From NCBI GenBank assembly GCA_020435005.1, contig JAGRAE010000015.1, forward strand, positions 1 to 32,866: a DNA stretch of 32,866 nucleotides. The letters are read 5' to 3'. Each line of letters begins with the position of its first letter. The first letter of the stretch is position 1. This stretch comes from Bdellovibrionales bacterium (lineage in GTDB: Bacteria; Bdellovibrionota; Bdellovibrionia; Bdellovibrionales; UBA1609). This document shows positions 29,685 to 32,866 of the stretch, piece by piece. Under the pieces are notes generated by a model. It saw nothing but the letters and a program-made list of their open reading frames with translations. It made no database searches and was not told where the DNA came from. Both the position numbers and the translations under genes were made by a program.

Positions 29685-30200
29685 CTAAAGAGAATCATTA
29701 AATTGTGTTAGCACAATTTGACTTGCGGTGTCTTGATCCGCCTCTGTCAAAGTAAGTAACCAATAAAACTTTTGCTCATTAGAGTTCGGCAAATAAGCAA
29801 TAACATAACTCACTTCAGGTCCTAGTTTGAAAACCTGATTTTTATTAAAAGTGAGGTTAACTTTTTGTAAAATATCAGATGATTGAGAGAGTACAATTTC
29901 AGGTTCATAGGTCCAGGGCCAATTAAGGCTGTCATAGGCCCAAGTTCCCATTTTAGGATTATTAAGTTTTCGGTAAATCTTTCCTTCGTAGTTACATGCA
30001 CCATAGAAGGCGTAAAATTCTATAGAGATAATTTCATCATCTTCATCAACTATTTTGGGCGCAGAAAACCACTGTACATGCTTGAGATCACCTGAAACTT
30101 TTTGACACTCCACTAAATTCAGTGGTTCTAAAGAAGAAAGATGAGCCTGTGCAAATGACAAATTATAAACAGTAATTAAACTTAAAAATAGAAACCTCAT
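29685..30200 (-). CDS. Small exported protein, function unknown
   Basis: A 171-residue protein with a signal peptide (MRFLFLSLITVYNLSFAQA; cleavage near residue 19) and a mature part containing two cysteines (VECQKV, GACNYEG). Numerous aromatic-rich beta-type segments follow, such as IISIEFYAFYG and KFYWLLTL. No family recognised. The ATG at 30200 is preceded by a G-rich GGGGGTGA; a GTG six bases upstream is an alternative. It is transcribed away from the + strand secreted-protein operon, and also ends before galU without overlap, so it may be monocistronic. Confidence 0.7.
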   Translation of the reverse strand: MRFLFLSLITVYNLSFAQAHLSSLEPLNLVECQKVSGDLKHVQWFSAPKIVDEDDEIISIEFYAFYGACNYEGKIYRKLNNPKMGTWAYDSLNWPWTYEPEIVLSQSSDILQKVNLTFNKNQVFKLGPEVSYVIAYLPNSNEQKFYWLLTLTEADQDTASQIVLTQFNDSL

Positions 30201-30275
30201 CTTCACCCCCCATGAAAGATACAGCTAATATTTAGAGAGATAATTCAGGTGAGTGAGAAGAGTCATTATTAAAGT

Positions 30276-30477: not shown

Positions 30478-31791
30478 ATGATTTTGCGATTATTCGTAGC
30501 TATTTTTACGGGAAATTTAATTTGGGTTTCAGGGGCTTTGGCAAATGCGGAGTGGCTGAAGTTAAAACAAAATTGTCACAAGGCTTCACAAAAAGTGATT
30601 GTAACTTGTGAAGTTAGAAAAATTACCTGGGATTTTTATGGAGATGAACTTCATAAGCAAGTAAGTCCTGTTAGAACGGCTATTCATGCCAAGGTTAGCT
30701 TTGGCGATAAGACAATTTCAAATAATAAACTCAATGTAACTTATAACCCAGGCCCCGGCGAAGAAAATTTAATTCAATGTCCGTATATCGCTCAGTATGA
30801 AGTGACCTATAGTGGTCCAGTTCAAGTAAAATGCGACCAGCTTGATGATGTAATAGATAACTTTGTTGGTTTTTGTCATAAAAACTTACATATAGGAACT
30901 AAGCAACAAGATGAATATAGAGTTAACCACCAAAGTAACAGTAAAATTATTGGAAAACTTATTCCTGGTACTATTCGTTCATCATGTGCAAATATAGGCG
31001 TAGAGGTTAAAGATTTAAATAAGGCACAGCCGAATAGTAAAATTTTTGATGCACAAGTCATGCAAGCCTTACGTGAGACAGGTTTGCAAATGAAGTCATT
31101 TGAAGAGGCCATTTCAATACCTTTAAGAGATTTAGAATTATTAAATAATGAATTAAAAGTAACAGATTGCCAGTCACAAAGATTCAGTAATAAATGTAAA
31201 CAACTTAAAAAGTCTGCTTCAGATAAATATTTAAAATTCTTAAATACAATGAATGTCAATTTAGATCCTTTATATAACAAGGTGTACGATACAACTCAGA
31301 TCTTGGGTTATCGCGTAGACAAAGTTATGGGTACGAATACTAAATTAAATGAGCTTCAGGACGAGCTTTTAGGTTATGGTTCTGAAACTAAAACAATAAG
31401 CTCAGTTACAAACTCATTGATGAGAAGACAAAACAGAACGGGTAGAAGTTTGAGTTTACGTTTTAAGTCATATTTAGATCTTGTTAATGGTTCAAATGGA
31501 ATTCAGAATAAATCTTTAAAGTTTACTGCTATCGAAGTGTATGGTGGTTTAAAAGAATCGTTAACATTTATTAATGCCTTAAAAGGTATAATCCACAATT
31601 CAGAAATCATGGTTCAATTGTTAGATTTTACAGGTGACTTTGAATCTGGAGTCATGAGTCAAACAATAACAGATGTTCAATCAATTTTATTCGGAAATCA
31701 AGAAAGCTCTCAAGAAATAAAAACTCCATTGAACATCTCATTTGATGACAGTGAAGACAAAAATGATTGGGAAAAGCAATTAGGATTATGA
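30478..31791 (+). CDS. Exported cysteine-rich protein of unknown function
   Basis: A 437-residue protein with a signal peptide (MILRLFVAIFTGNLIWVSGALA, cleavage near residue 22-24). The N-terminal half (about 25-170) holds six of the eight cysteines, at QNCHK, VTCEV, IQCPY, VKCDQ, GFCHK and SSCAN, and is beta-rich (TAIHAKVSF, LNVTYNPGPG). It probably forms one or two disulfide-bonded domains. The second half (about 190-410) is helical and polar, with two more cysteines. No family recognised. It is first of three genes; the next starts within its stop codon and the third encodes a lytic transglycosylase, so a role in the periplasm or at the cell wall is likely. Confidence 0.75.
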   Translation: MILRLFVAIFTGNLIWVSGALANAEWLKLKQNCHKASQKVIVTCEVRKITWDFYGDELHKQVSPVRTAIHAKVSFGDKTISNNKLNVTYNPGPGEENLIQCPYIAQYEVTYSGPVQVKCDQLDDVIDNFVGFCHKNLHIGTKQQDEYRVNHQSNSKIIGKLIPGTIRSSCANIGVEVKDLNKAQPNSKIFDAQVMQALRETGLQMKSFEEAISIPLRDLELLNNELKVTDCQSQRFSNKCKQLKKSASDKYLKFLNTMNVNLDPLYNKVYDTTQILGYRVDKVMGTNTKLNELQDELLGYGSETKTISSVTNSLMRRQNRTGRSLSLRFKSYLDLVNGSNGIQNKSLKFTAIEVYGGLKESLTFINALKGIIHNSEIMVQLLDFTGDFESGVMSQTITDVQSILFGNQESSQEIKTPLNISFDDSEDKNDWEKQLGL

Positions 31792-32366
31792 ATATGTTAA
31801 ACTTACAGGTAAAAGAAATTTTAAAATATATTTTTGTATGTGGAATAATTCTTAGCAATTCATTGGCTAGAGCTTCTTTTGAAGATGACTACGGTTTTTT
31901 TAATATAGGCAATAACTCTAGTTATAAGGAGTACAAGGAAGTTAGTAATTATAATCTGAACGATGCCGTTGGTGAGTCAAAACGTCTCATCAAAAGTGGA
32001 CGTCAAAACTTATTTATTGATTATTTTGAAAACCTTTTAGTGTTAGCAGCACAAGATCCTGGAATACAAAACTTACAAGCATTAACTGAGTTTATTGACT
32101 GGGGAGTCCAAGAAGGTGTCATTTCAGAAAGTTTATCAAAACTTATTCGTAATGAGTATTTCCATTACAAGTTTATTAATCTTACCAGCTTAACTTTACA
32201 AGATGCTTGTCTTCAATATGACAACATTAGAAAAAATTTAACAGCAGAGATGAAGAAAAAAGAAATGGGTTTGCTAAACGCTTTAGGACAAGAAGAAAAA
32301 TATAAACAAGCTTATAACATTATTTATCCAGAAATCATGTACACGCTAGAGGACTATTGTAATTAA
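31788..32366 (+). CDS. Exported helical protein of unknown function
   Basis: A 192-residue protein that is coupled to the preceding gene by a four-base ATGA overlap, with AGGA just upstream; a second ATG at 31794 is equally usable. The start is followed by a signal sequence (YIFVCGIILSNSLARA; cleavage near residue 29). The mature part is mostly alpha-helical with two cysteines near the C-terminal half (QDACLQY and the terminal DYCN), which could pair. No family recognised. The transglycosylase gene begins one base after its stop, so it is likely a functional partner of that enzyme. Confidence 0.7.
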   Translation: MNMLNLQVKEILKYIFVCGIILSNSLARASFEDDYGFFNIGNNSSYKEYKEVSNYNLNDAVGESKRLIKSGRQNLFIDYFENLLVLAAQDPGIQNLQALTEFIDWGVQEGVISESLSKLIRNEYFHYKFINLTSLTLQDACLQYDNIRKNLTAEMKKKEMGLLNALGQEEKYKQAYNIIYPEIMYTLEDYCN

Positions 32367-32367
32367 G

Positions 32368-32866
32368 ATGATACGATTATTTTTAACAACATTCATAGTA
32401 CTCAATTTTTATCCGACTTTAGGATCAGTTTTAAATAAATATATTGTGTCTGATGTTGAAGAGCAGTGGGAAGATTTTTGGTTCGAAGAAAACTCTTTGA
32501 TTCAACGAGAATTTAAAGTTGAATTCCCTTATGAAGATTGTTTTAGAGAAGCAGCAGAAGAACAAAAACTACCAGTTAGTTTAGTTTTAGCTGTCGCTAG
32601 GGGAGAAAGCGGATTTAACCCAAAAGCTGTATCCAGTGCAGATGCTCTTGGTATAATGCAAATTTTATGGCCAGCAACAGCAAAAGAATTAGGTTTTTCT
32701 AGCAGAAACCAACTCTTTGAGCCTTGTTCGAATATACGTGCAGGCACCCGTTACCTGAGACAACTAATAGATATGTTCAATGGAAATATTTATTTGGCAA
32801 CGGCTTCTTACAACTATGGTCCCACAAATATTAAAAAACAAATTAATAAATACAATGGCCGAATAA
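32368..32866 (+). CDS. Lytic transglycosylase, SLT domain (3' end cut by window)
   Basis: Cleaves the MurNAc-GlcNAc bond of peptidoglycan, leaving 1,6-anhydro ends. A signal-like N-terminus (MIRLFLTTFIVLNFYPTLGS) is followed by a linker. From about residue 55 comes an SLT (goose-lysozyme-like) domain: ARGESGFNPKAVSSADALG with catalytic Glu80, then IMQILWPATA, GTRYLRQL and ASYNYGP. Two cysteines (EDCFREA, EPCSNIR) may form a disulfide. The gene begins one base after the preceding stop. 166 residues are visible, and the gene continues past the window end. It may be a housekeeping murein enzyme or one dedicated to an envelope-spanning machine. Confidence 0.9.
   Translation, partial: MIRLFLTTFIVLNFYPTLGSVLNKYIVSDVEEQWEDFWFEENSLIQREFKVEFPYEDCFREAAEEQKLPVSLVLAVARGESGFNPKAVSSADALGIMQILWPATAKELGFSSRNQLFEPCSNIRAGTRYLRQLIDMFNGNIYLATASYNYGPTNIKKQINKYNGRI

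Follow-up and report, generated by a model that had tools for sequence, protein, structure and literature searches.

The three genes at the right-hand end of the window, which is the whole contig C66 of the source genome (G000; 32866 bases), are best explained as the left part of a six-gene operon, the products of which would form a complex across the envelope, equipped with a wall-opening enzyme dedicated to it. The operon in turn appears to be a member of a family of envelope gene clusters, the fuller form of which, A-B-C-D-E-F-SLT, is found in Woeseiaceae. We give this explanation, including the family membership, a probability of about 0.5. Judged by sequence similarity, genes of the system are conserved across two phyla, and there is a genetic link between the transglycosylase and two unnamed exported families, A and B, as the initial annotation had proposed.

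Gene layout and the SLT transglycosylase

The window ends inside the SLT gene (Table 1). The close coupling described initially was found as stated, genes A and B overlapping by 4 bases (ATGA) and B being separated from the SLT gene by a gap of 1 base. All three products have signal-like N-termini, as seen in a hydrophobicity test and by eye. The genes directly upstream of A are on the opposite strand, and two of them match PriA and GalU. An open reading frame at 29685-30206 (-), divergent from gene A and having the intergenic region in common with it, encodes a 173 amino acid protein with a signal-like N-terminus, which matched no family over the cut-off in Pfam or NCBIfam.

Table 1 Features of the gene cluster at the end of the window
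Feature	Position	Strand	Description
Gene A	30478..31791	+	437 aa; signal-peptide-like N-terminus (by eye and hydrophobicity); unnamed family
Gene A, N-terminal region	30550..31026	+	Six Cys; unmatched in A', the A of G015 and gammaproteobacterial A proteins
Gene A, core common to relatives	31027..31788	+	Two invariant Cys, codons 31168-31170 and 31195-31197
Gene B	31788..32366	+	192 aa; signal-like N-terminus; unnamed family; conserved Cys codons 32208-32210 and 32358-32360
SLT lytic transglycosylase gene, 5' part	32368..32866	+	166 of a proposed 271 aa; proposed remainder C325:9-325 (locus L015)
SLT domain PF01464	32536..32853	+	Predicted catalytic Glu80, codon 32605-32607; ARGES motif aligned with Slt70

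The third gene product is predicted to be a catalytically active, typical SLT-family transglycosylase. Its SLT domain scored 110.9 bits against the Pfam cut-off of 21.3 (PF01464), and the ES motif, ARGES, with the predicted catalytic Glu80, was aligned with Slt70 (PDB 1qsa). The pattern A[RK]GES was present in all 40 SLT members of loci L123-L165 which passed a 70 % coverage filter. The enzyme shares the SLT domain and the ES motif with Slt70 and the SLT family (PF01464), but differs from them in being short (271 amino acids after the joining described below), in having its own C-terminal tail and in being encoded with A and B. Other SLT proteins of the source genome share 35-37 % with the SLT protein of the window (three matches among seven open reading frames, loci L003-L013).

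Proposed continuation of the operon on contig C325

When A was used as query against 98 genomes, the only match other than A itself was a protein, A', of the same genome, encoded on contig C325 (E 7.5e-16). This contig carries, in order, an SLT-like tail, A' (276 amino acids), B' (203 amino acids) and a further protein, T (412 amino acids). In two-sequence comparisons, A matched A' at 26 % over 258 residues (E 2e-18) and B matched B' at 25 % over 127 residues (E 9e-8), A' and B' being a diverged, paralogous pair.

The first 325 bases of C325 form an open fragment, and 8 bases, CCGAATAA, are common to the contig and the end of the window, in frame. The joined SLT protein would consist of 271 residues and matched the SLT protein of another genome, G015, at 38 % over 218 residues, the C325 fragment alone giving E 0.002 against the same protein (two-sequence comparisons). 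The two pieces covered an SLT profile complementarily, positions 5-136 by the window piece (E 5.6e-55) and positions 137-237 by the C325 piece (E 7.4e-5), in a small set of open reading frames and with a profile trained on loci L123-L165 without either piece but with the SLT of G011 (L155). The join is based on the 8 bases and the weak tail match, and we infer, on good evidence short of assembly proof, that C66 and C325 are neighbouring contigs. A six-gene operon, A-B-SLT-A'-B'-T, is likely, with gaps of -4, +1, +18, +19 and +4 bases in the joined sequence. If the join holds, what was first described as a three-gene unit contains at least six genes here, and the extension past position 32866 that had been suggested leads to the SLT-like tail and then to A', B' and T.

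T has a signal-like start, a second hydrophobic stretch at residues 95-115 and a long charged coiled-coil-like repeat. The latter two features are like those of TolA and TonB of the Tol-Pal and Ton systems, from which T differs in having no Pfam match whatsoever, and so no TonB_C or TolA domain, and no profile match to the TonB-like protein of its own genome. Profile comparison also gave no link between T and the D and F proteins described below or the long coiled-coil protein of G015. Against the PADLOC models (anti-phage defence, e.g. Zorya), the coiled-coil-like part of T gave low scores (best E 0.0009) and A one weak match (E 0.043), and there were no matches for B, SLT or the C, D, E and F proteins of locus L154. 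Directly beyond the operon, and convergent with T, is a gene (L015:3053-4528, -) for a 491 amino acid protein with a signal-like N-terminus and no Pfam match.

Proteins A and B

The eight cysteines noted in A at first reading are residues 33, 44, 101, 119, 133, 170, 231 and 240. Six of them are within the N-terminal region, to which no match was found in the relatives compared, and the family alignment (A12) shows Cys 231 and Cys 240 without variation in all of its 26 rows. The matches of full-length relatives to A start at residues 161-188. In B, conservation reaches at least 90 % of 31 rows for both Cys 141 and Cys 191, so that the C-terminal disulfide bond proposed initially is plausible; a third cysteine, residue 18, is within the signal-like N-terminus. 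The gammaproteobacterial members of the B family are lipoprotein-like in appearance.

The earlier statement that A and B are without a known family held, no family in Pfam or NCBIfam being matched over the cut-off. Profiles trained on loci L123-L165 and used with small sets of open reading frames recovered both copies of each protein, the A profile finding A of the window at E 1.1e-22 and A' at E 8.5e-40, and the B profile finding B of the window at E 1.3e-22 and B' at E 3.3e-14. Single-sequence structure models, with a mean pLDDT of 37.7 for A and of 45.8 for B, were too poor for use and gave no confirmation of the beta-plus-helical layout first described for A, and searches of solved structures with profiles of A, B, C and D gave nothing credible. 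In trees of A and B, the Bdellovibrionota rows are on saturated branches (length 10), and the trees are therefore uninformative on transfer.

A seven-gene operon in Gammaproteobacteria

The genome_contigs collection (84,980 species) was scanned with an SLT alignment, A and B being left out as queries; the scan starts from two short peptide patterns and is thus a sample, not a census. It returned 44 loci, one of which is that of G015, the other 43 being mostly from Woeseiaceae, a family common in marine sediment, or other Gammaproteobacteria. A peptide-pattern scan for related loci with A as query gave zero relatives.

Within the 43 loci, homologues were found of A in 31, B in 32, C in 34, D in 36, E in 39, F in 42 and SLT (G) in 43, counts which are not independent of training, since L154 and L151 were the seeds of the A-G profiles and these loci themselves served for training. 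All seven genes were present in 30 of the 43 loci, from Woeseiaceae and other Proteobacteria, and in each of these 30 they are on one strand in the order A-B-C-D-E-F-G(SLT). Nine more loci are without left genes only, as the locus starts within the operon. Locus L128 (Aeromonadales) has A, B, F, G and E and no C or D; L161 (Pseudomonadales) has B, C, D, F and G and begins 39 bases before B; L163 (Deltaproteobacteria) has C, D, G and F and begins 378 bases before C; and L155, from G011, has SLT only. The same genes were found in fewer loci by blastp with A, A', B and B'.

Because loci fetched with SLT alone carry homologues of A and B, the linkage of these genes to SLT is more than chance. Orthologues of A and B unlinked to the transglycosylase had been named as the finding which would speak against the grouping. 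Every accepted A or B homologue was near an SLT gene, a weak test in that most were reached through SLT, and the linkage has a limit in G011, where the SLT orthologue is not directly preceded by B.

Caspase-domain (Peptidase_C14) genes closely follow the cluster in the two divergent loci, L163 (4734-5789) and L128 (6444-8459), that of L128 being fused to PEGA and formylglycine-generating-enzyme domains. Near F in L163 is a lipoprotein-like gene (L163:3446-4567), E-like in size and layout by eye and missed by the E profile, which is possibly a diverged E.

Distribution in Bdellovibrionota

A profile of the core common to A and A' gave matches at E 1 in 21 of 196 genomes, and besides G000 the only credible one was in G015 (E 7.5e-6), the next best being in G133 (E 0.0014). 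G015 is from the same family as G000 (Bdellovibrionaceae MAG ARS45, contig NYZX01000119.1) and carries consecutive genes for SLT, A, B and another B. Its two B proteins matched the B profile trained on L123-L165 at E 2.8e-9 and 6.5e-11, and its A matched the A profile trained on the same loci weakly, at E 0.23. Divergent to this row (L063:1-5823, -) are genes for an 884 amino acid charged-repeat protein and a 1051 amino acid open frame, both with no Pfam matches, and these products may be part of the system.

With the SLT profile, one further orthologue was found among 47 genomes of the family, that of G011 (156 bits, the next best being 68), on a 5-kb contig without A or B and with no B in the 428 upstream bases. 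An enlarged A profile, by which the diverged A of G015 was missed, matched 2 of 368 genomes of the phylum at E 0.01, namely G000 and, at E 0.004, G184; in another profile search there were weak matches in G172 and G186, the matches in these three genomes lying at E 0.004 to 0.007. With unchanged profiles, no homologues of C, D, E or F were detected on Bdellovibrionota contigs, the C profile giving no match in G000 or G015, and the Bdellovibrionota version may therefore differ in kind.

Several candidates were rejected. Five of 19 loci with weak matches to the A/A' core were read (G133, G044, G035, G017 and G011) and had no A-B-SLT setting, the G011 match being an N-formylglutamate-amidohydrolase-like protein from its sequence. 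Later matches in G010 (EnvC-like) and G056 (LysR-type) were also rejected on reading the sequence. Three of eight matches to the B profile in family f10 were read (G072, G074 and G084) and all were YqeY-like, and an exported protein of G169 matching the B profile (E 4.3e-5) was set aside.

Families C to F

The A, B, D, E and F proteins scanned, some of them against one database, matched no Pfam or NCBIfam family over the cut-off. For 27 members of C, Pfam gave nothing better than E 0.018 and no PF01618, and for 22 members of D the best among the matches listed (25 of 40 families) was an fn3 insert in L163, with 24.1 bits against a cut-off of 25. Four hydrophobic stretches were seen in the C proteins of L161 and L163 and one over the threshold in that of L154; D has one in each of the three members tested and F one in L154, the sole member tested. 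F and the gammaproteobacterial SLT (G) share a C-terminal domain (hhalign probability 94 %, the best of 20 column shuffles giving 3 %). The layout of this short domain is, as we take it, reminiscent of SPOR, from which it differs in that the F and SLT proteins scanned had no SPOR match in Pfam. The tail of the Bdellovibrionota SLT was unmatched to the F/G domain in profile comparison.

A likeness of C and D to the MotA/ExbB and MotB/ExbD pair was seen by eye, failed the statistical tests and is taken as a lead only. The C motifs IxTAIG and ALxTT, found in 33 of 33 members, fall on the GTVWGIM and EALxATA segments of ExbB/TolQ in the only alignment found, and the four hydrophobic stretches, seen in two of the three C members tested, are like those of MotA/TolQ/ExbB. 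D is like MotB/TolR/ExbD in having one transmembrane segment, preceded by DxMRF, which is invariant in 22 aligned rows (alignment A11; 22 of 36) and was seen in 20 of 36 D fragments of another file, N-terminal trimming being thought the cause. Thr and Asp are important in ExbB/ExbD. Ten genomes were searched with PF01618, and in the seven of them which carry C it gave no match at that gene. Comparison of C with 17 ExbB/TolQ-type proteins, a set for which 10 of 30 loci had no usable open reading frame and 3 more failed the length filter, gave an hhalign probability of 1.7 % over 61 columns, with 1 of 60 block shuffles scoring higher (not significant), and D had no match to 12 ExbD-type proteins (hhalign probability below 1 %). 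In the source genome, 17 MotA_ExbB matches passed the cut-off (20 in all at E 1), a large set of ExbB/TolQ/MotA-type genes compared with the 4 to 8 matches in nine other genomes.

Discussion

In the preferred reading, A and B would be periplasmic parts of a complex, and a membrane-anchored protein, T in Bdellovibrionota and D in Woeseiaceae, would span the periplasm. The transglycosylase may be held at the complex through its C-terminal part, and its cutting of glycan strands would allow the complex to pass or to anchor in the wall; the complex of Woeseiaceae may draw its power from C and D, a pair in the inner membrane. Assembly or anchoring of a wall-crossing complex is the simplest explanation because genes for a small SLT are found time and again beside those for the same exported partners, joined in Woeseiaceae by those for an inner-membrane pair. 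Envelope-machine assembly, one of the roles suggested in the initial annotation, is favoured by the recurrence of the linkage in another phylum, within a larger operon with membrane proteins, the complex itself being a conjectural part of that role. A more speculative extension, which we consider doubtful, is that C and D are a MotAB/ExbBD-like stator beyond profile detection, that A, B, E and F form the periplasmic and outer-membrane part, that SLT with the wall-binding domain of F opens the wall, and that the Bdellovibrionota have a reduced version driven through T by another of the many ExbB-type pumps present there, which together would make a new class of ion-driven trans-envelope motor.

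The genes could instead be a unit for wall remodelling or turnover, in which A and B restrain or place the transglycosylase in growth or division and there is no machine. Such a unit would agree with the signal-like N-termini of A, B and SLT, with the typical SLT-family character of the enzyme and with the C-F homologues being undetected on the contigs of G000 and G015; 30 of the 43 loci, however, pair A-B with a multi-spanning and a single-spanning membrane protein and two more proteins, which is beyond the needs of a regulator, and we hold this explanation only tentatively. Processing of the prey wall, with the products secreted into prey and SLT digesting the prey wall, had also been put forward, and it is suggested by the placement of G000 in the same family as G015 and G011 (Bdellovibrionaceae, Bdellovibrionales) and by a precedent, a secreted MltA-like transglycosylase of Bdellovibrio which is reported to cut the prey septum (PMC10127604). 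This role found no specific support and is improbable: the Bdellovibrionota genomes searched gave A in G000 and, more weakly, in G015 only, the score being credible only in G000 among the 368 genomes of the phylum (a search in which the diverged A of G015 was missed), whereas the 30 complete relatives are in Woeseiaceae and other Proteobacteria. The loci as a whole are mainly from Woeseiaceae and other Gammaproteobacteria, among which we know of no predators.

Even less probable is that the genes belong to a secretion, conjugation or phage tail apparatus, with SLT as a VirB1/IagB-like or tail-lysin helper. The SLT domain does match the IagB model, below the cut-off (34.9 bits against 208), and phage tail lysin profiles, as is expected of any SLT domain, but A had no match among 72,556 plasmid and 50,697 phage records, and no relative of the A or C family was present in viral contigs, among the stretches tested, which matched a short pattern. 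A secretion or conjugation cluster downstream had been named as contrary evidence to the proposed system, and in the 15 kb of C325 no such cluster was recognised: reading of the open reading frames, five of which were scanned by HMM against Pfam, gave no secretion genes, including no secretion ATPase, coupling protein or relaxase.

The wall-crossing complex preferred here would follow a known pattern, in which an envelope complex has its own dedicated transglycosylase. The SLT domain itself is ordinary and the families surrounding it are unnamed. A thin search of the literature on Woeseiaceae or Bdellovibrio transglycosylases or related ExbB/SPOR clusters found no description of the operon, and the occurrence, in bacteria only distantly related, of similar sets beside membrane proteins without a known family suggests an undescribed envelope machine. 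In one gammaproteobacterial lineage, a conserved operon is made up of six families unnamed in Pfam and NCBIfam, part of the operon being found again in Bdellovibrionota. Should the products form a true machine, it would be one so far unseen, and the operon provides a defined list of genes for testing the passage of a large complex through the wall with its own enzyme.
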